DNA of 64,000 bases from Adlercreutzia murintestinalis (GTDB lineage Bacteria > Actinomycetota > Coriobacteriia > Coriobacteriales > Eggerthellaceae): contig NZ_CALPCC010000009.1 in NCBI RefSeq assembly GCF_943192905.1, positions 1-64,000 on the forward strand, given 5' to 3'. Positions 30,626 through 49,616 of this stretch are shown here, piece by piece. Within the stretch, counting starts at the first letter, position 1; the number at the start of each line of letters is the position of its first letter. The notes below the pieces were generated by a model. It saw nothing but the letters and a program-made list of their open reading frames with translations. It searched no databases and was not told the DNA's origin. Both the position numbers and the translations under genes were made by a program.

Positions 30626-31234
30626 ATGCGTTATCGGGTGATCAAACGAGCGTTCGACATTCTCTTTAGCAGTGCGGTTATTGTGGTGGGTGCAGTACCG
30701 GGTATTGTGATAGCTTTGGCAGTAGTGGCTGATACGCACGGCTCTCCATTCTATTTGCAAGAGCGCATAGGCCAATATGGGCGGCCGTTTAAAATCGTGA
30801 AGTTGCGCACCATGGTTGCTGATTCGGATGATCTAGAGAAGCATTTAAACGCCGAGCAACTCGAGCAGTGGCAGCAAGAGCATAAGGTCGACGATGATCC
30901 GCGGATTACGCGCTTGGGTGCATGGTTACGCAAGCATAGCGTGGATGAAGTTCCGAACTTCTTCAACGTGTTCATCGGCCAGATGAGCGTGATAGGACCG
31001 CGTGCTATCACGGTTGACGAGTTGAAATGGTTCGGGGACAAAGCGGCTGTGATGCTCTCGGTGCCCTCTGGTATTACAGGGCTTTGGCAGGTGCAAGGCC
31101 GTAATGATGCAACCTTCGAATCGGGCATGCGTCAGAAGCTAGAGTTGTACTACGCTGAGCACGCCCGCATCAAGCTTGATTGGAAGATCGCATTCAAAAC
31201 GATAACCTCTATAGTGAAAGGGACAGGAAAGTAG
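30626..31234 (+). CDS. Initiating sugar-phosphate transferase (undecaprenyl-phosphate)
   Basis: The 202-residue protein is the catalytic part of the WbaP/PglC-type bacterial sugar transferase family, which moves a sugar-1-phosphate from UDP-sugar to undecaprenyl phosphate. It has the membrane-inserting helix (IKRAFDILFSSAVIVVGAVP), the KIVKLRTMVADSD signature, LRKHSVDEVPNFFNV, MSVIGPRA and GITGLWQVQGRN. The short form lacks the extra N-terminal membrane domain of WcaJ. The first gene of the locus is commonly this enzyme. No Shine-Dalgarno is visible before ATG 30626. Confidence 0.9.
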   Translation: MRYRVIKRAFDILFSSAVIVVGAVPGIVIALAVVADTHGSPFYLQERIGQYGRPFKIVKLRTMVADSDDLEKHLNAEQLEQWQQEHKVDDDPRITRLGAWLRKHSVDEVPNFFNVFIGQMSVIGPRAITVDELKWFGDKAAVMLSVPSGITGLWQVQGRNDATFESGMRQKLELYYAEHARIKLDWKIAFKTITSIVKGTGK

Positions 31235-38270: not shown

Positions 38271-39386
38271 ATGGAGATGGCTGTCAACATCATCACTATC
38301 GTTGATCGGTACAACTACGGAAACCGCTTACAGAATTATGCTCTAGCGGAATCATTGAAGGCTCTCGGATTTGAGCATGTTAGAACGATCAGAGTTGTGG
38401 ATTCTCGGCCAAGATCATATCTCCGCGACATGCGCAGGGCATATCGTGGAGGCAAACAGGGGAGGGGAGCTGCCCAGAGATCATTCGATCAGTTCACAAA
38501 GGCCTTTATCCCGTTCAAGAAGACGAAGGGGAAAGACCTGGCAGGCATTCCGGGGCTTTTCGTGATTGGGAGCGATCAGGTTTGGAATCCGAGCTGGGAT
38601 ATAGGGGCGAGCCTTGATGGCGCGCAATTCGCCCTTCAAGTTCCCGGGGCAAGAAAGGCGGCATATGCTGCGAGCTTCGGAATCGAGCTCGGCGCTCTTC
38701 CTGAAGAAACAAGGGAGCTCTTTCGCGAGGGCCTCTTGTCCTTCGACGAAAGCATGTTGTCTGTGCGTGAGGATGAGGGTGCTGCGATCGTAGAGAACCT
38801 GACGGGATGGAAGGTGCCCGCGGTGGTCGATCCGACTATCTTGCTAGATTCGGCAGCATGGCGTGCGCGGGCTCGCGTACCGCATATCGATGGTATCAAG
38901 AAGGAACCGTTCTGCGTCAAGTATTTTCTCGGTGATGAGAGAGCCCAGCAAGAGGTCGAGAGGCTCTCTGCTGCAAATGGCTTGAACGTGGTGGATATCT
39001 TAGCGCCGAACGTAGAGATAGGGCCTTTAGAGTTCGTCTGGCTCATCGACCATGCGAGCATGGTCTTTACGGATAGCTTCCATGCGGCGGTTTTCAGTCT
39101 CTTGTTCCATACACCATGCAGGGTTCTGGAACGCACGCAAAAGGGACAGTGCGATATGGCAAGCCGGTTCAGGACGCTTGCTGCTGTTGCAGGACTGGAT
39201 GACATAGGTTTTGCTGATTGCCGTTTGCTGGAAGAATATGCCTATCGGTTCAAATGGGATGAAATCGATGTAAGATTAGATGAGCATCGCAGGGGGTCGC
39301 TTGATTGGTTGCAGAGAACGATGGGATTCCTTGCTGGGACGAGCGCCCGATTGGTGCAATCCCATCCAACAAGACGTGAACTGTGA
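38271..39386 (+). CDS. Polysaccharide pyruvyl transferase family protein (2)
   Basis: The 371-residue protein is a second PF04230 member: NYGNRLQNYALAESLKALG at the N-terminus, VIGSDQVWNPSWD (about 100), YAASFGIE, SVREDEGAAIV, VVDPTILLD and FTDSFHAAVFSLLFH (about 265). It differs clearly from the first copy at 32488, so it is not a recent duplicate. It lies before the flippase gene; its FrhB-like partner may be the one at 43516. Confidence 0.87.
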   Translation: MEMAVNIITIVDRYNYGNRLQNYALAESLKALGFEHVRTIRVVDSRPRSYLRDMRRAYRGGKQGRGAAQRSFDQFTKAFIPFKKTKGKDLAGIPGLFVIGSDQVWNPSWDIGASLDGAQFALQVPGARKAAYAASFGIELGALPEETRELFREGLLSFDESMLSVREDEGAAIVENLTGWKVPAVVDPTILLDSAAWRARARVPHIDGIKKEPFCVKYFLGDERAQQEVERLSAANGLNVVDILAPNVEIGPLEFVWLIDHASMVFTDSFHAAVFSLLFHTPCRVLERTQKGQCDMASRFRTLAAVAGLDDIGFADCRLLEEYAYRFKWDEIDVRLDEHRRGSLDWLQRTMGFLAGTSARLVQSHPTRREL

Positions 39387-39414: not shown

Positions 39415-40947
39415 TTGTCTAAATCAAGGAGCACGGCGCGCAATATCTTCTGGGGCCTTGCCAATAAGATAGTTCTGATCCTGCTCCCCTTCGTTGTGAG
39501 AACGGTTCTGATTTATCGTCTTGGCATAGAATATGCGGGGATAACAGGGCTGTTCACGTCGATCCTCAATATCTTGAACATCACAGAGCTGGGATTTGGC
39601 AGCGCAGTGGCATTTGCGATGTATAAGCCCATTGCGGAGCACGACGATGTGAAGATATGCGCTCTCATAGGTTTTCTCAAAAACTGCTATCGTGCGATCG
39701 GCGCCATCATCGCTCTGGTCGGGCTTTGCTTGATCCCCGCCCTTCCCGTTCTTGTGCATGGAGGCTATCCGAGCGGGGTGAACATCACATTCGTGTATGT
39801 TGCGATGCTCAGCGGGATCGTGCTCGGTTATTTCATGTATGGATATAAAAGAACGATCCTCATAGCCAACATGCGCGATGATGTGAGAAGCAAGGCGAAT
39901 ATGATCGCTTTGGCAAGCGAGTATACCCTTCAGATCGTCTTAGTCTGGATCTTCTGTGATTATTATCTCTATGTTCTCGTCATTCCGGTTGGAGCTCTGT
40001 TGGAAAACCTCATAATCAACTGGGGTGCGAACCGGCTTTATCCCGATTACCGGAGCCGTGGCAGCTTGGATGCTCCGGCCCGAGCAGCGCTTGTACGCCG
40101 TGTTAAGGGGCTGGTCCTTCAAAAACTCGGGAGCGTGGTGCTGACTTCGGCGGATGCGGTTATCGTCTCCGCTTTTCTCGGGCTCACTATCCTGGGGCAA
40201 TATCAGAATTATTACTATATCTTTATGGCGTGCAATTCATTCATGATAGTTATCGTGAATGCGATCATTCCTGCTGTGGGCAACTCCCTGATCAAGGATG
40301 ATGAAGAGGCCAACTTCGAACAGTTCCTGACGTTCAATTTCCTTTATAACTGGGTGACGACATGGATTGCGATCTGCATTCTGTGCCTTATTCAGCCGTT
40401 CATGCGGCTATGGATGGGCGCCGAATTGATGCTGCCGGATTATTTCGCGCTCGTTTTCTCCGTGTATTTCTATTGCTTCAAGTGGTGCGATATGGTGTTC
40501 GTCTATCTGGAAGCTGGGGGACTCTGGTGGAAGGCTAAGCTGGTCCCCATGATTGCCGCTATCCTCAATATCGTTCTAAGCTTGGTGCTCGTGTCAGTGA
40601 TGGGGTTGGTGGGTGTGCTAGTTGCGACGATCGCCTGCGTTCTGCTCGTCTATGATGTTGGAAACTCGAAGATCGTTCTCTCCCATCTGTTCCCTCACTG
40701 CAGGCCTCTTAGAGTGTTTGCTCGACAGCAAGGCGTTCATTTTGCTTGTAGCGTCTTTGTTGCGTCCGTTACCTATTTCTGCTGTACGCTTCTCCCTGTT
40801 GGAGGTGTTATGCGTGCCGTCCTCGATCTTGCTCTGCTTCTCGTCCTTCCGAATGCCATACTAGTGCTCTTCTATGCGAAGACGAAGAATTTCAAAGCGG
40901 CGCATGATCTGATCGTGCGAACTATTTCCCGCAAAGCGGGGATGTAG
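39415..40947 (+). CDS. Wzx-type polysaccharide flippase
   Basis: The 510-residue protein has 12-14 membrane helices, starting ARNIFWGLANKIVLILLPFV, typical of the MOP/MATE superfamily members that flip lipid-linked repeat units. YGYKRTILIANMRDDV lies in an early cytoplasmic loop. The start is TTG 39415; the nearest upstream stop is TAG 39388, and no ATG lies between. A GGAG lies 9-12 bases before. It works between the glycosyltransferases and the EpsG-type polymerase. Confidence 0.87.
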   Translation: MSKSRSTARNIFWGLANKIVLILLPFVVRTVLIYRLGIEYAGITGLFTSILNILNITELGFGSAVAFAMYKPIAEHDDVKICALIGFLKNCYRAIGAIIALVGLCLIPALPVLVHGGYPSGVNITFVYVAMLSGIVLGYFMYGYKRTILIANMRDDVRSKANMIALASEYTLQIVLVWIFCDYYLYVLVIPVGALLENLIINWGANRLYPDYRSRGSLDAPARAALVRRVKGLVLQKLGSVVLTSADAVIVSAFLGLTILGQYQNYYYIFMACNSFMIVIVNAIIPAVGNSLIKDDEEANFEQFLTFNFLYNWVTTWIAICILCLIQPFMRLWMGAELMLPDYFALVFSVYFYCFKWCDMVFVYLEAGGLWWKAKLVPMIAAILNIVLSLVLVSVMGLVGVLVATIACVLLVYDVGNSKIVLSHLFPHCRPLRVFARQQGVHFACSVFVASVTYFCCTLLPVGGVMRAVLDLALLLVLPNAILVLFYAKTKNFKAAHDLIVRTISRKAGM

Positions 40948-40964: not shown

Positions 40965-42833
40965 ATGGTCTATGTCGTCATAGCGTTATGCTCTCTTGGT
41001 GTGCTCCTGCTTGTTTGCCTAGCTGTAGCGTATTCCCATAGTCGAGGACGCGCTGACCGCGACGTTATGGACAGAAGGTTCAGAAGGCTTCCTTCTAGCT
41101 TGGAACGCATCGCGATAGGCTCCGGTCCTTGTTTGCACGATTTTGACTTCTCTGATCTTTGGGATTCGGAGAACTTGGCGTTATGGCCCCAAGATCTGCG
41201 ATACGATTTCAGGATGCTTGAGCATTATGGGGGCCATCTTGCTCCCAGAGGCGTTGTGTATCATGTTGTGTGCCCCCTGTCGTTCCTTGAAAACTCGAAC
41301 TTGGATGAATATCGATTCCATGTGCAATATGCAGACCTTCTGCCTGCCGAGAGCATAGATGCTCCTAACATCCTGTGCGCCGTCGAGAGGAAGTGGAGGG
41401 TGGTCAGCATCCTCGATCTTCGTTTTTCGCGCGGGTACTCGCGGATCAGAAAGCTTCCCGATACGCTTTCGGAGGAAGAAAGAAGACAATATGCTGATAG
41501 CTTAAGGGAAGGATGGCTATCTGCGAATGGGGCTCTGAAGGACCTGTGCGATAAAGAGCAGGCTACCCATTTCGCGCGCTCATTCGAGAAGAATAGGGCC
41601 TATATAAAGGCTATGAACGAGTATTGCCGTGATCACGGTTTGCGCTATATCATCGTTCTTCCGCCGCTATCTCCGTATCTTGATTCGTTTTTTACGGATG
41701 GATTCAAACAAGCGTTTCTCTATGATAACTTACGTGCTTCGGGCATAGAAAGCGCCCAAGTGATCGATTATTCGCGCTCGGCTGCTTTTTGTGATGAAGG
41801 GGACTTTTTAAACGGTCTTTTTCTCGGAAGAAGGAGCGCTCGACTCTTTACTGAGCGTGTTATTAGGGAAGTTGAAGGTGATGATGTGTTCGAGAAAGCC
41901 TCAGAAGACAGCAAAGCTACCGCGTCCATACCTTTTATAGGATTTGGAACAGGAGTCGTAAGACGCTACTCACGGAATCGGATGCTCCGGATCAAAACGG
42001 TTGCGAAGAGGACGCTGATCGCCCTTAAGAACCGGCGCCCTTCTAAAGAAGCATTGATAGATAGGCATATGGATAAGATCGTGAAGGACGCTTATGAGTG
42101 CGGTTTCAGGATGTTCGACGCTGGGCGCATCTACGGATATTGCGAGCAGATGATCGGTCAAGGTCTCCATGGTATCGATCGGTCGTCGTATTTTTTGACG
42201 ACGAAAGTCTCCGATATGGATCTAAGTCGCCCGTGTAGCTCGGGTGATGTGAGTGGCAATCTGGGCGATTCGCTCCGATATCTACAAACCGAATATGTGG
42301 ATGCATATCTGCTCCATTGGCCTCACGGTAATTGGGAGGATATCTACCACCAGATGGAGAGAGAGTATAAAGAAGGTCGCGCTCGGCATCTCGGGGTATG
42401 CAATTTCGGGGTGAATGATCTTGAGCGGCTTTGGGGAGTGTGTGAGGTCGCTCCGACCTTCAATCAGATCGAATGCAACCCGTACCATTCTCAATCGGAC
42501 GTCAGGCTATGGTGCGCGGAGCACAACGTGAGAGTGATGGCGCATACTCCGACATTTCGGATGAGGCAGGAAATCGCTTCGGAGCCGGTCCTTACAGGCC
42601 TTGCGCGGGAAAAGGGAAAGACGGTTGCCCAAATAATATTGCGCTGGCATTATCAGAACGATGTCATCCCAATCGTCTCGACCACTTCACATGAACATCT
42701 GAAGGAAGATGTGGACATCATGGGCTTTGATCTGTCCGATGACGAGATGAACCTGATCGATTCGCTCGATAAAGGACAGAGCCTCTTTGCTGGCATTGGG
42801 ATCGATGATCCGCTTTATGTGTATAATCTCTGA
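40965..42833 (+). CDS. Fusion: membrane-anchored SGNH-like domain plus aldo/keto reductase
   Basis: Residues 2-22 are one membrane helix. Residues about 45-300 look SGNH-like: IAIGSGPCLHDFD as block I and YIIVLPPLSPYLDSF as the block before the end. At the expected Asp-X-X-His the sequence reads GLFLGRRSA, so the catalytic His seems lost. Residues about 310-622 are a full aldo/keto reductase: FDAGRIYGYCE (Asp and Tyr), TTKVSDMDL (Lys), LLHWPHGNW (His), GVCNFGV and TFNQIECNPYHSQ. The catalytic tetrad is complete. The joint is in one unbroken frame. RBS AGGAGC precedes ATG 40965. The AKR may reduce a keto-sugar of the glycan; the fusion is unfamiliar to me. Confidence 0.8.
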   Translation: MVYVVIALCSLGVLLLVCLAVAYSHSRGRADRDVMDRRFRRLPSSLERIAIGSGPCLHDFDFSDLWDSENLALWPQDLRYDFRMLEHYGGHLAPRGVVYHVVCPLSFLENSNLDEYRFHVQYADLLPAESIDAPNILCAVERKWRVVSILDLRFSRGYSRIRKLPDTLSEEERRQYADSLREGWLSANGALKDLCDKEQATHFARSFEKNRAYIKAMNEYCRDHGLRYIIVLPPLSPYLDSFFTDGFKQAFLYDNLRASGIESAQVIDYSRSAAFCDEGDFLNGLFLGRRSARLFTERVIREVEGDDVFEKASEDSKATASIPFIGFGTGVVRRYSRNRMLRIKTVAKRTLIALKNRRPSKEALIDRHMDKIVKDAYECGFRMFDAGRIYGYCEQMIGQGLHGIDRSSYFLTTKVSDMDLSRPCSSGDVSGNLGDSLRYLQTEYVDAYLLHWPHGNWEDIYHQMEREYKEGRARHLGVCNFGVNDLERLWGVCEVAPTFNQIECNPYHSQSDVRLWCAEHNVRVMAHTPTFRMRQEIASEPVLTGLAREKGKTVAQIILRWHYQNDVIPIVSTTSHEHLKEDVDIMGFDLSDDEMNLIDSLDKGQSLFAGIGIDDPLYVYNL

Positions 42834-42845
42834 GGGTGATACCGT

Positions 42846-43499
42846 ATGGGAGCAGGCGTTGCATTCAAAAAGATAGCGCATATCAGCATTACCAGATTCC
42901 TCTTCTATAATTTCTTCTCCAGAAAAGTGAAAAGAACAGGGAAAGGCCTTTTGATCGTTGGGCGCCATTCCGTTATCGACCTTGCAAAGGGCTCGAAAAT
43001 ACTACTAGGGGATGAGCATTTCTACGTCAATGACCATCGCCCCTCCGGCTCTCGGGCTGAAGCTATCGTGCGCCTTGCAAAGGGCGCTGTTTTGGAGGCC
43101 AGGGGATGCGTGAGGCTCTGCTATGGGTCGACGATCGAGGTGCACAGGGATGCATATATGGAGTTGGGCTCGGTCTATATCAATTCCGGGGCTGTACTGA
43201 TCGCTGGTCTGAAGATGTCAATCGGGGATGGGGTCCTTATATCGCGTGAGGTGTTCATCTATGATTCTGATCACCACCACATTCTCAAAGATGACGGAAC
43301 GGCGAAGAATCCTCCCCGTCCGGTGGTCATCGGGGACAATGTCTGGATCGGGATAAAGTCGACTATCCTAAGAGGATGTCGCATCGGAGATGGAGCTGTT
43401 ATCGGCGCCAATTCTCTTGTAGGCGGGAAAGTGAAAGCAGGAGCGATGATGTCGGGAAATCCGGCGCGCTCTTTTGGAGAGGTAAGCTGGCGGCCGTGA
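42846..43499 (+). CDS. Left-handed beta-helix acyltransferase
   Basis: The 217-residue protein has hexapeptide-repeat character through most of its length (MSIGDGVLISREVFIYD, VVIGDNVWIGIKSTILRGCRIGD-like). The catalytic His region is YDSDHHHILKDD, and it ends GGKVKAGAMMSGNPAR, as in WcaF/maa-type O- or N-acetyltransferases. It likely acylates a sugar of the repeat unit with an acyl-CoA, or with an acyl-ACP from the FkbH/ACP module downstream. Confidence 0.85.
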   Translation: MGAGVAFKKIAHISITRFLFYNFFSRKVKRTGKGLLIVGRHSVIDLAKGSKILLGDEHFYVNDHRPSGSRAEAIVRLAKGAVLEARGCVRLCYGSTIEVHRDAYMELGSVYINSGAVLIAGLKMSIGDGVLISREVFIYDSDHHHILKDDGTAKNPPRPVVIGDNVWIGIKSTILRGCRIGDGAVIGANSLVGGKVKAGAMMSGNPARSFGEVSWRP

Positions 43500-43515: not shown

Positions 43516-44682
43516 ATGATGGTTGATGTAGTTTCGAAAAGGGAATGTGTAGGCTGTAAAGCTTGTGGGGATATTTGTCCTGTGAACGCTATCACCTTTC
43601 CAGAGGACCAAGAAGGATTCTGGTCTCCGGCTATCGATCTTGATGTCTGTATCGAATGTGATAAATGCGAATCTGCTTGTCTGGTCCTGAGCAGGCGGGA
43701 TAGGGGAAACAAGAGTCAGCCGGATGTGCTTTCCACTATAAATCGGGATGAACAAATAAGGTATGACAGCACTTCAGGTGGCCTATATCCCGCTTTGGCG
43801 AGCGCTTTTCTAGAGAGTGGCGGTTGGATAATAGGCTGCGCGTTCACGCCTGACATGCAGGGAGCGGAATTCATAGCTTCTTCTAGCAGGGATGGTCTCA
43901 GCCGCATCATGCGCTCGAAGTACTTCCAAGCAGATACAGCTGGTATATATGCGACGACCAAGAGATTGCTCGAACAAGGAGAGAGGGTGCTATTCTCTGG
44001 CTGTCCATGTCAGGTACAGGCGCTCTATTGCTTTCTAGGTGAAGAGTATGCGAATCTGCTCACGGTGGATTTCATCTGTTTAGGAATCAATTCGCCGCTT
44101 GCATATAGAGCTTTTATCAGCGAACTCGAAAACGAACATCATTCTCCGGTGAAGGAGGTGCGCTTCAAAGACAAATCGGCCGGATGGACGCAGCTTGGCA
44201 CAAAGATCGTGTTCCAGAATGGGGAGGAAGAGTTCCATGGCAAAGATTCAGACCCCTGGGTGAATGCATATGTGGTTGGCAAGCTGATGGTCAGGCCATC
44301 TTGCACGGCCTGTCCCTGTAAGGGCTTTCCGCGTGTCGCTGATCTGTCTTTCGGGGATTTCTGGGGGATCGCTCTTTCAAAAGAGGATATGAGAAAAGGC
44401 GTATCTGTTGCCTTGATAAATAATGAGAGAGGAAGGAGCCTTCTTGAAGAATCCCGGGATATGCTTGAGGTCATGCGATACACCCTTGAAGATGCAGTCG
44501 GAGGTAATCCCGCCTTGGTGCGTTCGGTAGACCGGGGACAAGATGCAGAAGAGTTCTTTGAGCGCATCCATTATGAACCCTATAGCAGTGTTGTTTGGGA
44601 TCTGGTGGGAAGAAGAAAGAGACTGGGCCTTCTTGGTCGTATCGTCTCGAAGATGAGATCCATCGCTGACAAGTTGAGGTGA
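43516..44682 (+). CDS. FrhB/FdhB-like iron-sulfur protein (2)
   Basis: The 388-residue protein has two 4Fe-4S motifs, CVGCKACGDICP and CIECDKCESACL, the second with Leu in place of the usual Pro. STSGGLYPALASAFLE and LFSGCPCQVQALYCFLG follow, with CTACPCKGFPRVADLSFGDF near the C-terminus. It is a diverged paralogue of the gene at 33665. RBS AGAGG precedes ATG 43516. Electron transfer or redox chemistry on a sugar precursor is likely from the family, unproven for the locus. Confidence 0.84.
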   Translation: MMVDVVSKRECVGCKACGDICPVNAITFPEDQEGFWSPAIDLDVCIECDKCESACLVLSRRDRGNKSQPDVLSTINRDEQIRYDSTSGGLYPALASAFLESGGWIIGCAFTPDMQGAEFIASSSRDGLSRIMRSKYFQADTAGIYATTKRLLEQGERVLFSGCPCQVQALYCFLGEEYANLLTVDFICLGINSPLAYRAFISELENEHHSPVKEVRFKDKSAGWTQLGTKIVFQNGEEEFHGKDSDPWVNAYVVGKLMVRPSCTACPCKGFPRVADLSFGDFWGIALSKEDMRKGVSVALINNERGRSLLEESRDMLEVMRYTLEDAVGGNPALVRSVDRGQDAEEFFERIHYEPYSSVVWDLVGRRKRLGLLGRIVSKMRSIADKLR

Positions 44683-44721: not shown

Positions 44722-46461
44722 ATGGCAAACAGGTTCTTACAGATAAAGAAAAGCAAAAGAAGAGACCGTACCGGCTTCAAGTCGGTAAGAATGGCCGTGA
44801 TGGGGGATTGCGCTACCCAACATCTTGCTGAGGTTCTCGAAGGGGTTGGTGCTGAGCATTCGCTTGATATTGAGGTGTTCGACGCGGATTATGATCAAAT
44901 AGATGCTTTGGTGTTGGATAGAGCCTCAGAGTTGTATGCGTTCTCAGCTGACTGCATCCTTATCCAGAACTGCGTTGAGAAGCTCTACGATCGGTATCTT
45001 GAATACCCCAGTGAGAAGCGCGGGTTGTTTTGTGAAGAAGTTGTCGGGCTGATGCGCTCTCGTTGGAAAAGGATAGGCGATACATCACGCGCGATGATCA
45101 TCCAAACGAATTATCCGGAAATGGATGATCGGGTTTTCGGAGATTTTGCCAACGAAGTCCCCGGATCATTCATCAGCCAGCTGCGGCGCATCAACGTCGG
45201 GCTTATGGATGCTGCTGCAGCGTCCTCCAAAGTTAGGATATTGGATGTATGCCAGATCCAATCAACCATGGGAAGGGACTGTTTTTTTGACCCAAAGCTC
45301 TACTGCACATCGAAGATCCCGTGCTCGTTGGAGGCGCTGTGCTCAATAGGCGAGAGTGCCATCCGCACTGTCCGGGCTATGTTGGGAGAGATGAAGAAAT
45401 GCGTCATCGTCGATCTCGATAACACGATGTGGGGAGGTGTGATCGGGGATGATGGATTATCTGGGATAGAGATCGGCGATCTCGGTATCGGGGCTGCTTT
45501 CGTATCCCTGCAAAAATGGCTGAAAGAGCTGAAGGGGAGAGGCATCCTACTGGCAGTATGCAGCAAGAATGATCTGGAAACCGCTCAGGAACCTTTTGAA
45601 AAGCATGATGAGATGGTGCTGAAGCTCGATGATTTCGCTGCGTTCGTGGCGAACTGGGAAGACAAGGCCAGCAATATCAAAGCCATCCAGAAAGAGCTCA
45701 ACATCGGCATGGACAGCCTGGTATTCATCGACGATAACCCTTTCGAGCGCAATGCGGTACGGTCTCTCCTTCCGGATGTCGTTGTTCCTGAATTGCCGGA
45801 TGATCCAGCTTGCTATCTTCCTTATCTTCAATTTTGCGACCTTTTTACGGCAAATGCATACTCTATCGAGGATAAGAACAGGACCGAGCTCTATGCTGCA
45901 GAGCGATCAAGACGTATCGCAGAATCCCAGTATCAGAGTTACGAAGACTATCTAGAAGGTCTCTGCATGATCGCTGCAGTCGAGCCTTTTGATGAGATGA
46001 GTATTCCGCGCGTTGCTCAGCTGACCCAGCGCTCGAATCAATTCAATCTCCGCACCATCCGATATTCAGAAGCAGAGATCAGTGCGATAGCTGCTTCCGA
46101 TGATTATCTGACAGCAGCTTTCACGCTTTCCGACAGATTTGGCGATCATGGATTGATAGCGCTGGTTATCCTTGAGAAGAGGGGGCTAGATGAGCTTTTC
46201 ATCGATAGCTTGATCATGAGCTGTCGGGTTCTCAAGCGTGGCATGGAAGAATTCGTCATGAACAAGATCGTGGATTTGGCTCGGGAGCATGGTTTCGGAC
46301 GCCTTGTGGGCGAATACATCGAGACCAAGAAGAACAAAATGGTTGCAGAGCTTTACAATAATATGGGATTCACGCAGTCGGATGGTACCTATGAGCTTTT
46401 ACTTGCCGATTATGCGGAAAAGAGCACCTACATCCAGGAGGAAGAGAATGGCGACAGATGA
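44722..46461 (+). CDS. FkbH-like HAD-IIIC protein
   Basis: The 579-residue protein has the FkbH layout: an N-terminal SGNH-like domain (about 25-205), a HAD domain with VIVDLDNTMWGGVIGDDG (about 230), AVCSKNDLE and VFIDDNPFERNAV, and a C-terminal GNAT-like domain (about 400-560; QRSNQFNLRTIRYSEAE). FkbH proteins load a glyceryl or related unit on an acyl carrier protein in polyketide pathways. The next gene encodes such a carrier and overlaps its end, so it probably charges that ACP. Confidence 0.88.
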   Translation: MANRFLQIKKSKRRDRTGFKSVRMAVMGDCATQHLAEVLEGVGAEHSLDIEVFDADYDQIDALVLDRASELYAFSADCILIQNCVEKLYDRYLEYPSEKRGLFCEEVVGLMRSRWKRIGDTSRAMIIQTNYPEMDDRVFGDFANEVPGSFISQLRRINVGLMDAAAASSKVRILDVCQIQSTMGRDCFFDPKLYCTSKIPCSLEALCSIGESAIRTVRAMLGEMKKCVIVDLDNTMWGGVIGDDGLSGIEIGDLGIGAAFVSLQKWLKELKGRGILLAVCSKNDLETAQEPFEKHDEMVLKLDDFAAFVANWEDKASNIKAIQKELNIGMDSLVFIDDNPFERNAVRSLLPDVVVPELPDDPACYLPYLQFCDLFTANAYSIEDKNRTELYAAERSRRIAESQYQSYEDYLEGLCMIAAVEPFDEMSIPRVAQLTQRSNQFNLRTIRYSEAEISAIAASDDYLTAAFTLSDRFGDHGLIALVILEKRGLDELFIDSLIMSCRVLKRGMEEFVMNKIVDLAREHGFGRLVGEYIETKKNKMVAELYNNMGFTQSDGTYELLLADYAEKSTYIQEEENGDR

Positions 46462-46687
46462 GATATACGGGAAGCTGAATAAGATATTCCGCGACGTGTT
46501 CGATGACGATGAGATCGTACTGACTGCAGAGACCACCGCTGATGACATAGAGGATTGGGATAGCCTGGCGCAAATCACCTTGATAACAGTTATCGAAGAC
46601 GAGTTCGGTATCCGTTTTGCTGCTTCGGAGATCTCAAGCTTGCAGAATGTGGGCGAGATGGTTGAAGTGATAGCGAAGAAGCAGTGA
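46448..46687 (+). CDS. Acyl carrier protein
   Basis: The 79-residue acidic protein has the phosphopantetheine site DWDSLAQITLI (Ser about residue 38). The start ATG 46448 overlaps the FkbH-like gene by 14 bases, with GAGGAAGAG as RBS. It differs from housekeeping AcpP and is most likely the dedicated carrier for the FkbH-MaoC-SDR module. Confidence 0.9.
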   Translation: MATDEIYGKLNKIFRDVFDDDEIVLTAETTADDIEDWDSLAQITLITVIEDEFGIRFAASEISSLQNVGEMVEVIAKKQ

Positions 46688-46691
46688 GCCT

Positions 46692-47117
46692 ATGAGCGTG
46701 CAAGGCTATACCTTTGAAGATTTCTGTGTAGGGGAGAGCGCCTCTTTTTGTAAGCGGATCTCTCTTGAAATGGTTGAGGCATTCTGAGGATTGTCCGGGG
46801 ATACCAATATGCTGCATTGCGATCGATCTTACGCAATGGAGCGGGGGTATCAAGATAGGGTCGTTTACGGAATGTTGGTCGCCTCGCTTTATTCGACGCT
46901 GGTTGGCGTTTACCTCCCGGGAGAGCTATGTCTCTTGAACAAGGTGGATGTGAGTTTTCGCAAACCTGTATACCCTGGTGACGAATTGACTGTGAGCGGC
47001 GAGGTTGTTTCAGTGCATCAGGTGCTCCGTGTTGCAACCATTAAAGCGAAGATAGTCAATCAAGATAGCGTGAAAGTATCGAACGCCACCATCCAAGTTT
47101 CTGTGCGGGAGAATTGA
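46692..47117 (+). pseudogene. MaoC-like (R)-hydratase with in-frame TGA
   Basis: One frame of 141 codons runs from ATG 46692 through TGA at 46785-46787 (codon 32) to TGA 47115. Before it: GYTFEDFCVGESASFCKRIS. After it: GLSGDTNMLHCDRSYAMERG, VVYGMLVASLYSTLVGVYLPG and VSFRKPVYPGDELTVSGEV, a complete hot-dog-fold hydratase with the Asp/His active site in SGDTNMLH. The stop falls between the conserved Phe and LSGD. The frame is intact on both sides, so this is one substitution or a recoded stop. Intact, it would dehydrate hydroxyacyl-ACP. Translation restart at TTG 46791 would lack the first strand. Confidence 0.8.
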
Positions 47118-47122
47118 TCCAG

Positions 47123-47872
47123 ATGGCTGAAATGGCAGAATCAAAAAGGGTACACCTCATAACCGGCGCATCTTCGGCGATCGGTCAAGCTTTTATAGGC
47201 GCTCTCTGCTCCGCAGGAGAAGAGGCTGTTGTTATTGCTCAGTACAACCAAACGCCCGTGGAGGAGGTTCGGGATCGAACTGGCTTCAGGATTATTCCTA
47301 TAAAAGCCGATCTCGGCGATCCTGCGCAAGTTGAGTCCTTGATAAGCCGCATCGACGACATGGGTTATGCGCCTGACAAGATCATCCATCTTGCGGCTGA
47401 TAAGTTCGCATACCAGCGCTTTAAGCAGCTCGAATGGCAACGCGTAGAGCGAGCGATGTCTATTCAGGTTCATTCGGTTTTGCAGCTGATGCAGCATTAC
47501 CTTCCCATGATGGCTAAGCAGCATTATGGGCGTGTTGTTATCATGCTCAGCGCATACACGTTGGGGATGCCCCCGAAATTCATGAGCGACTATATTATCG
47601 TGAAAAATGCGCTTCTCGGATTGATGAAGGCTGCGGCTGCTGAATATGCGGGTAAGGGCGTGGCTGTGAATGGCATTTCTCCGAATATGATAGAGACCCC
47701 CTTCCTTTCGAATATCGACGAGCGTGTTATTGAGATGACGGCTGCAGAGTCGTCCTTGAAACGGAACATAACAACTTTAGAAGTTGCAAAAGCCATTCAA
47801 TTTCTTTTGTCTGATGAAGCAGAGTGCATGAATGGCGCCAATCTGAATCTTACTGGTGGCGATCGGGCATAA
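47123..47872 (+). CDS. Short-chain dehydrogenase/reductase (FabG-like)
   Basis: The 249-residue protein has the Rossmann motif ITGASSAIGQAF, IHLAAD (the NNAG equivalent), catalytic Ser in MLSAYTLG, Tyr and Lys in SDYIIVKNALL, and the C-terminal GANLNLTGGD as in 3-oxoacyl-ACP reductases. ATG 47123 is chosen over TTG 47114. It follows the MaoC-like gene; together with FkbH and ACP it suggests synthesis of a hydroxyacyl group. Confidence 0.88.
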   Translation: MAEMAESKRVHLITGASSAIGQAFIGALCSAGEEAVVIAQYNQTPVEEVRDRTGFRIIPIKADLGDPAQVESLISRIDDMGYAPDKIIHLAADKFAYQRFKQLEWQRVERAMSIQVHSVLQLMQHYLPMMAKQHYGRVVIMLSAYTLGMPPKFMSDYIIVKNALLGLMKAAAAEYAGKGVAVNGISPNMIETPFLSNIDERVIEMTAAESSLKRNITTLEVAKAIQFLLSDEAECMNGANLNLTGGDRA

Positions 47873-47910: not shown

Positions 47911-48066
47911 ATGATCCCATTCTTTGACAAGATGAAACATGCGATAGAAATGCTCGGCGGCAAGCGTGATGTGGCGATCATGGTCGTCGCATCCATTATC
48001 TTCTCGATGTGCGTCATATTGCCTCATTGGGCCGATAGGGTTTTTCTAAGAAAGAGTGCGTGGTAA
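47911..48066 (+). CDS. Small one-helix membrane protein, possibly a detached N-terminus
   Basis: The 51-residue product has one membrane helix (VAIMVVASIIFSMCVILP) and a basic N-terminus. Its stop overlaps the GTG start of the DUF6020-like gene by 7 bases. It may be a real small gene or the first helix of the following protein separated by a one-base shift near 48055-48060. Confidence 0.45.
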   Translation: MIPFFDKMKHAIEMLGGKRDVAIMVVASIIFSMCVILPHWADRVFLRKSAW

Positions 48067-49616
48067 TTGCTCTTGCCTTAGCAGTTCTGGTCTTTATCGC
48101 GCTTGTGGCTGCCAGACAGCTGATGGGTCGGCTTGCTGCCTCGCATCGTGGAAATGAGGAGCGGATCAGGATCGCTTTTCCTCGGACTGCGCGCTTTTTC
48201 TTTGTATGTTTTGCGTTGCTCGAGGTCGTTCTGCTTATCGTTGTTCTGTCGAACTATCCGGGATTTGTCTCTTTCGATTCTTTCGATAGCATACGGCAAG
48301 TGCTCGGAACGGCGGAAAGGACGTCGGCGCGTCACTACGATGGGCTTATGAACTATCATCCCATCTTTTTCACGTTTCTCGTCGGCGTTGCCTTTTCGCT
48401 TGCGACGCCCTTCGGAGATATAGCTGTATCGGTGTTCGTATTCTCTCTGATACAGATCACGGCAACCGCTTCAGTGCTTGCATGGGCGCTTACCTGGCTG
48501 GACAAAAGAGGCGTTGGGAAGCCGTACCTGCTGGTTGCTACGGCATTTCTTCTTTTCAGTCCCGTGGTGATGATCCATGCTATCACGATGTGGAAAGACG
48601 TGGTATTCAGCCTCGTTATGCTCGTGTATATCCTCAAGCTCTTTGATTTCGCTTGCCAGGATACGTTGTCTAGGAAGGATATGGTTCTCTTTGTCGCGCT
48701 TTCCCTCGGACTCATAGTGCTTCGGAATAATGGGATCTATATCGTTTTGGCCACGCTGGTCTTTATGTTTATAGGTCTTGATAAGGTCAGAAAACTTCTT
48801 GCATGCGTCGCGTGTGCATTGATTGCTTTCGTGCTTGTTGTCAATGGACCAGTTTTCTCGCTTCTGCAGATACAGAACGTCAATTTCTCGGAATCTTTGA
48901 GCATTCCGCTTCAACAGGTGGCGGCGGTTTTGCATCATGGAGGAAAGATAGACGAAGATCAGAAAGACTTCCTTGACAAAATACGTCCTGTGGAAGAGAT
49001 GGCATCGAGCTATCGTCCCGAATGCCCGGATCCGATCAAATATGTCGAGGATTTCGATGAGTCGTTCTTGGCCGATCATAAACTGGAGTTCTTGATGGTG
49101 TGGGCTCAGCTGATGCCCGAGAACCTGGGCATCTATACAAGAGCCTGGATCAAGGAAACGGAGGGTTATTGGCATCCCGGGTATCTATCTATGATAGGGA
49201 CTCCAAAAGGTGTAGTGGCTACGGAACGACATGTTTTTAAGGGATTAGGGGAGCAGGATTTTGATTTTTCGGATCCCGTTGATCTGATCGGGCTCGACCT
49301 CAACATTTTCAGCATCACGAATACCCTCGCAAAGGATTTCCCTGGCTTATTCAGCATGGGAACCATCGTCTGGGTCGTCATCTTCGGTTTTGTGTTCTCT
49401 TTGCTTGGTAGAGAAGTCAGAGGCGTCCTGCGCTTCTTGAGCTTCGTTCCCCTTCTTGCGCTGCTGTTCACGCTGCTGATCGCGGTGCCCATATCATGGT
49501 TCTTCAGATATATCTTGGCATTCTATCTGGTCATTCCGTTCCTGCCTGTTCTGTCGGGTATTGCGGGCTGCTGCAGAGTGTATGATGGGGTTCTCGGCGA
49601 GCGGTCTACCGTGTAA
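48060..49616 (+). CDS. DUF6020-like polytopic membrane protein (GT-C type)
   Basis: The 518-residue protein has about 11 membrane helices and a large extracytoplasmic loop (about 285-395). Signature-like parts are SNYPGFVSFDSFDSIRQVLG, NYHPIFFTFLVGV, ITMWKDVVFSLVML and LRNNGIYIVLATL, as in DUF6020 proteins of actinobacteria and firmicutes, thought to be GT-C glycosyltransferases using lipid-linked sugars. GTG start 48060 lacks a clear RBS, which supports a lost N-terminus (see 47911). It converges with the next gene. Confidence 0.75.
   Translation: MVIALALAVLVFIALVAARQLMGRLAASHRGNEERIRIAFPRTARFFFVCFALLEVVLLIVVLSNYPGFVSFDSFDSIRQVLGTAERTSARHYDGLMNYHPIFFTFLVGVAFSLATPFGDIAVSVFVFSLIQITATASVLAWALTWLDKRGVGKPYLLVATAFLLFSPVVMIHAITMWKDVVFSLVMLVYILKLFDFACQDTLSRKDMVLFVALSLGLIVLRNNGIYIVLATLVFMFIGLDKVRKLLACVACALIAFVLVVNGPVFSLLQIQNVNFSESLSIPLQQVAAVLHHGGKIDEDQKDFLDKIRPVEEMASSYRPECPDPIKYVEDFDESFLADHKLEFLMVWAQLMPENLGIYTRAWIKETEGYWHPGYLSMIGTPKGVVATERHVFKGLGEQDFDFSDPVDLIGLDLNIFSITNTLAKDFPGLFSMGTIVWVVIFGFVFSLLGREVRGVLRFLSFVPLLALLFTLLIAVPISWFFRYILAFYLVIPFLPVLSGIAGCCRVYDGVLGERSTV

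Follow-up and report, generated by a model that had tools for sequence, protein, structure and literature searches.

We found that a single open frame in the window (the 64,000-nucleotide stretch of DNA analysed here) encodes a 622-aa protein in which an N-terminal membrane helix, a domain assigned by profile comparison to the SGNH proteins and an aldo/keto reductase (AKR) are fused. We lean towards the view that the SGNH domain is a pseudoenzyme which docks the reductase, at the inner face of the membrane, to an assembly for polysaccharide decoration. The finding goes beyond chance because the AKR match is overwhelming and the split in Ser and His between the four reductase-linked members of the family and the 20 other homologues is sharp. 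An earlier sequence-only reading of the same DNA had already described the fusion; Gly54 in place of the nucleophile Ser, the reversed charges around the helix and the changed cofactor-contact residues of the AKR are added here.

Architecture of the fusion protein

The frame (Table 1) starts with ATG, with an AGGAG ribosome site just 5', and the codon usage of both its halves is like that of the neighbouring genes. As the sequence-only reading had it, an SGNH-like half and a complete AKR, here recognized by PF00248, share this one frame behind a single anchor: the hydropathy scan of the 622-aa protein returned one hydrophobic segment, with its 19-residue maximum at residues 4–22 (mean hydropathy 3.03), and no second one, the rest of the full-length protein never rising above 1.3. 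An SD-like AAGGTG is located 5 bases 5' of the GTG codon 308, from which, by its sequence context, a free AKR could be made.

Table 1. Features of the fusion gene and of its neighbours, in positions of the window.
Feature	Position	Strand	Basis or remark
Polysaccharide pyruvyl transferase-like (PF04230)	38271..39386	+	
Flippase-like polysaccharide transporter (PF01943, just under cut-off)	39415..40947	+	
Fusion gene (membrane helix, SGNH-like pseudo-domain, aldo/keto reductase; 622 aa)	40965..42833	+	
N-terminal membrane helix, residues 1–26	40965..41042	+	hydropathy/charge scan
SGNH-like domain, ~residues 43–306, catalytic residues lost	41091..41882	+	profile comparison, alignment
Block I motif Gly52-Ser53-Gly54; Gly in nucleophile Ser column	41118..41126	+	alignment
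Block V FLNGLFL (281–287); Phe286 in His column, Asn283 in Asp column	41805..41825	+	alignment
Internal GTG (Val308) preceded by AAGGTG, possible second start for a free AKR	41886..41888	+	putative function
Aldo/keto reductase domain, residues 321–622	41925..42830	+	Pfam, alignment
Strongly basic stretch, residues 330–367, net +11; ~31-residue insertion after first AKR strand	41952..42065	+	
Hexapeptide-repeat transferase	42846..43499	+	
FrhB/FdhB-like iron-sulfur protein	43516..44682	+	
FkbH-like protein (PF21211, TIGR01686)	44722..46461	+	
Acyl carrier protein (PF00550)	46448..46687	+	
MaoC-like dehydratase gene, in-frame TGA 46785–46787 near start	46692..47117	+	
SDR ketoreductase-like	47114..47872	+	

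The PF00248 match (E 3.3e-45) spans residues 368–602 and covers positions 20–290 of the 291-position profile, and alignment with relatives places the intact catalytic tetrad at D385, Y390, K414 and H451. The domain shares ~27–33% identity with nine relatives from the AKR superfamily (DkgA/YvgN-like in PDB 3b3d, 3d3f, 1mzr), but differs from the superfamily in its position behind a membrane-anchored domain, in an insertion of ~31 residues (by comparison with the standalone AKR of L085) within a very basic stretch, and in an altered cofactor loop. The basic stretch may lie on the membrane. The loop reads IVSTTSHEHLKED in place of IPKS..R..EN, which we take to be the motif that usually holds the 2'-phosphate of the cofactor and makes the usual NADP(H) contacts. 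Compared with the relatives, Lys is changed to Ser, Arg to His and Asn to Asp, and the aromatic residue before S-P is His527; the resulting IVST..H..D stands against IPKS/T..R..N in 7/9 relatives, the other two also varying. The AKR half is probably a working reductase, its activity being less than certain because these cofactor-contact residues are changed. In a tree of 10 AKRs, the placement of the window AKR is unsure and its end branch is the longest, while the three AKRs from polysaccharide loci group at only 75/83. Another contig of the same genome (L003 589–2208) encodes a 539-aa AKR with a long N-terminal extension, flavodoxin-like and signal-bearing in appearance.

The sequence-only reading had proposed to look for the same fusion in other genomes, and we detected it in one of 395 genomes of the window's order. 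The same-genus genomes G010 and G011 contain no copy of the SGNH-like domain. A later profile (E ≤ 0.001) located 28 places in 27 genomes of the order, three of them strong and 25 weak. Among the weak loci, no AKR was seen by eye in the ORFs of the 19 that were read (all except L065, L066, L068, L069, L073 and L080), with L059 and L077 lacking a matching frame there, and a Pfam scan of 11 weak-locus proteins yielded no AKR. A literature search, judged by titles and the starts of abstracts, retrieved nothing on an SGNH-aldo-keto reductase fusion.

Descent and decay of the SGNH-like domain

SGNH proteins of envelope-polymer pathways are usually regarded as moving acyl groups on the outer side of the membrane, or are left with a hypothetical annotation. 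The N-terminal half of the fusion matches neither a Pfam (E ≤ 1) nor an NCBIfam (E ≤ 0.1) model, PDB sequence searches with this part or its profile gave nothing meaningful, and the predicted structures are of low confidence (pLDDT 42.7 for the N-terminal part alone, 52.2 for the whole protein). Standalone homologues were detected in G137 and G027 by a search of 138 genomes of the window's family. With a profile including these two, 398 genomes sampled within the class to which a Lysinibacillus genome belongs yielded homologues of ~300–335 aa in 17 cases (Bacilli set). One further homologue was found among 129 genomes of the Lysinibacillus phylum, in G953, a genome outside the window's class and probably of another phylum than the window, and relaxing the search with the G953 protein as query added three plasmid homologues. 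A direct search of plasmids with the window's N-terminal part found no relative, nor did a search of viral contigs at the sensitivity used, and a phage collection held no relative of the protein of the Ilyobacter plasmid. A match in G102 (E 8.7e-5) was dropped, as its ORF looks unrelated and it is absent with the later profile at E ≤ 0.001.

In profile comparison, the first three members (window, G137 and G027) match the Bacilli set at 99.8% (E 2e-28), and 11 proteins of the window's order at 98.4% (E 7.5e-15), the latter comparison being not fully independent since these proteins were found with a profile containing the window row. Three unrelated alignments used as controls scored 0.1, 0.4 and 0.1%. 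Weak Pfam matches (E ≤ 0.1) to PF13472 (GDSL) and PF04914 (DltD) were present in 4/11 and 2/11 of the order proteins, respectively. By these sequence comparisons the N-terminal half is homologous to SGNH/DltD/GDSL-like proteins, in agreement with the SGNH-like character attributed to it earlier, and is assigned to the kin of the MBOAT-partner (Dlt-like) SGNH kind.

The gene context of the intact homologues resembles that of the known MBOAT-SGNH pairs (DltB/DltD, PatA/PatB, AlgI/AlgJ-X). In all five Bacilli loci fetched (of 17), the intact gene is preceded by a 483–486-aa ORF and that by a 462–492-aa ORF, which Pfam, run on one of the five loci, recognized as MBOAT (E 6.5e-29) and AMP-binding (E 7.1e-44) proteins, respectively. 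This ligase-MBOAT-SGNH order is found in L048 and in Metabacillus, where the plasmid annotation lists ACP, AMP-binding and MBOAT genes followed by the intact SGNH homologue; in Vescimonas, the annotated order is MBOAT, then the intact homologue. In the Dlt-like logic, the SGNH Ser receives its acyl group from the MBOAT protein on the outer side of the membrane (PMC12148441). The intact homologues, like the fusion, carry an SGNH domain preceded by a single membrane helix; unlike the MBOAT-SGNH pairs, however, the fusion lacks Ser and His, has reversed helix charges, carries a reductase, and comes from a genome (91% complete) with no PF03062 (MBOAT) match at E ≤ 0.001. G137 and G027 encode one MBOAT each, on contigs other than that of the dead SGNH gene, and next after the MBOAT gene of G137 comes a separate SGNH-type candidate, recognized by eye through its DHHW sequence. 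The Ilyobacter homologue is an exception, as it retains Ser and His, sits in a polysaccharide locus and has no MBOAT annotated in the 16 kb shown.

Among 24 aligned homologues, Ser and His are kept in 20/20 without a linked reductase, a class read from gene neighbourhoods in 5/17 Bacilli genomes and all three plasmid records and assumed from close similarity in the remaining 12 Bacilli. In the four reductase-linked members, the Ser/His columns hold Gly/Phe (window), Ala/Phe (G137), Ala/Leu (G027) and Asn/Phe (G953). The Phe286 column confirms the loss of the catalytic His suspected in the sequence-only reading, and with both the nucleophile Ser and the catalytic His replaced, the SGNH domain of the fusion is, as read from the alignment, a dead enzyme. 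The four dead members form one side of a branch with support 100/98, within which the window pairs with G953 (97/87), though the branches are long.

In the fusion, no Lys/Arg precedes the helix and the 15 residues after it carry net +4; all three single-helix dead members, the fusion included, have no Lys/Arg before the helix and net +3 to +4 after it. By contrast, all eight intact Bacilli members examined have Lys/Arg before the helix, which predicts N-in with the domain outside. In the dead G953 member the hydrophobic stretch is longer, probably forms two helices and is positively charged at its ends. From charge bias, the fusion helix is predicted to be N-out/C-in with both domains cytoplasmic; the charge reversal would thus put the domain on the side of the membrane that an NAD(P)H enzyme requires. 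As the Ilyobacter homologue is intact yet shows the same inward charge pattern as the dead members, the inward turn may predate the loss of the residues. This plasmid protein of Ilyobacter polytropus (L093 7956–8759) possibly represents an intermediate state.

Reductase linkage and the polysaccharide locus

We found that all four dead members are linked to a reductase, each in a polysaccharide locus. In G953, 11 bp separate the end of an AKR gene (PF00248, E 2e-48) from the dead SGNH gene 3' of it, whose ATG start is preceded by a strong ribosome site. The partner in G137 and G027 is an SDR gene, recognized by Pfam in the G137 copy, that runs into the beginning of the dead SGNH gene; a GGAGG precedes the ATG of the latter. 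FkbH was not seen by eye in the ORF lists of the G137 (18 kb) or G027 (14 kb) stretches.

The fusion gene lies in the order pyruvyl transferase, flippase, fusion, hexapeptide transferase, FrhB, FkbH, ACP, MaoC (broken) and SDR. An initiating sugar-phosphate transferase (30626–31234) and glycosyltransferases are also present, and these genes around the fusion agree with the polysaccharide locus recognized earlier. The in-frame TGA of the MaoC-like gene indicates either a broken gene or a sequencing error. The module of G953 runs FkbH, an ACP-like short frame (by eye), MaoC, SDR, FrhB joined to hexapeptide, flippase, AKR and dead SGNH. The joined gene (L089 4411–6222) encodes a fused FrhB-like iron-sulfur protein and hexapeptide transferase, which are neighbouring genes in the window. 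In G019, the order is pyruvyl transferase, flippase, standalone AKR, hexapeptide and FrhB (AKR by Pfam, other genes by reading).

The order of the two partners is SGNH-AKR in the window but AKR then SGNH in G953; thus, the fusion is not simply the lost stop codon of a G953-like arrangement. Since the same two partners neighbour each other in G953, their pairing is probably functional rather than accidental. The sequence-only reading had set against the fusion the case of two separate genes in homologues together with an artefactual joint: homologues do have separate genes, but in the G953 module these genes adjoin, which argues for a real partnership.

Candidate roles of the fusion

According to the docking reading which we favour, the helix would be inserted N-out/C-in, so that the SGNH and AKR domains would both lie on the cytoplasmic side, close to the membrane. 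No longer a mover of acyl groups, the dead SGNH domain would serve as a docking or substrate-presenting module, while the AKR would reduce a carbonyl on an intermediate handled at the docking site, before flipping and polymerisation. The substrate may be a keto-sugar nucleotide or a lipid-linked sugar, or alternatively an acyl group carried by the ACP that is encoded in the adjoining FkbH-ACP-MaoC-SDR set. A precedent for non-enzymatic use of the SGNH fold is given by the OSK domain, described in the cited text as non-catalytic and RNA-binding (PMC9487903), although OSK is an animal protein with an unrelated role. A dead clade, probably turned inward and reductase-linked in 4/4 members, would be a clean case of a bacterial SGNH fold reused as a scaffold.

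The mechanism put forward in the sequence-only reading is a serious but unlikely alternative: the SGNH-like part would hold a lipid-linked sugar, here specified as undecaprenyl-linked, for reduction of its keto group by the AKR in situ. Membrane tethering suits such a substrate, and the locus encodes the initiating transferase, glycosyltransferases and a flippase; yet the sequence names no ligand, the AKR of G019 occupies the same slot without an anchor, and the neighbouring FkbH-ACP-MaoC-SDR genes point equally to an acyl-ACP substrate.

We consider it rather unlikely that the fusion is neutral or accidental, with an SGNH remnant that is nearly idle and an AKR that is perhaps also made on its own from GTG 308. 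Its occurrence in a single genome of the order, the AAGGTG motif before that codon and the free AKR in the same slot of G019 are consistent with this possibility, but it accounts poorly for the same partners lying adjacent in the same module of G953 in reversed order, for the reductase linkage of every dead member and for the neighbour-like codon usage of both halves.

That the SGNH-like domain still works through other residues (e.g., Ser53), as an acyl acceptor or esterase, seems very unlikely: Gly52 and many other core columns are kept, and some known SGNH enzymes lack the block V Asp (PMC9487903), but Ser and His have given way to Gly/Ala/Asn and Phe/Leu in all four members, and the window's genome revealed no MBOAT donor. 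An assembly artefact joining two genes is hardly credible, even for a single draft genome of 55 contigs and 91% completeness, as the joint lies inside an 89-kb contig, the frame is kept across it, composition and codon usage match the neighbours, and the partners adjoin in G953.

The docking reading would also offer an entry point to the FkbH-ACP-MaoC-SDR-AKR module seen in polysaccharide loci. In polyketide clusters, glyceryl-ACP is taken to arise from 1,3-bisphosphoglycerate through FkbH and ACP (PMC3679948), and bacterial glycans can carry derivatives of glyceric acid (PMC3068675, where FkbH is not mentioned). As in the glyceryl-ACP cassette of the bafilomycin cluster (PMC3679948), FkbH and ACP genes occur together, three and four genes 3' of the fusion, and FkbH recurs in the G953 module; unlike that cassette, the set of the window lies in a polysaccharide locus with MaoC, SDR and AKR. 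We can imagine, as a quite unlikely extension, a whole family of cytoplasm-facing SGNH pseudoenzymes docking reductases, in which FkbH-ACP would provide a glyceryl group, MaoC would convert it to a pyruvoyl-like one and AKR/SDR to a lactyl-like acyl-ACP, which the hexapeptide transferase would put on a sugar. The dehydration and reduction of glyceryl-ACP to a lactyl-like group is only an idea. In the window, the SDR gene of this set is followed by a gene encoding a DUF6020 membrane protein (48060–49616).
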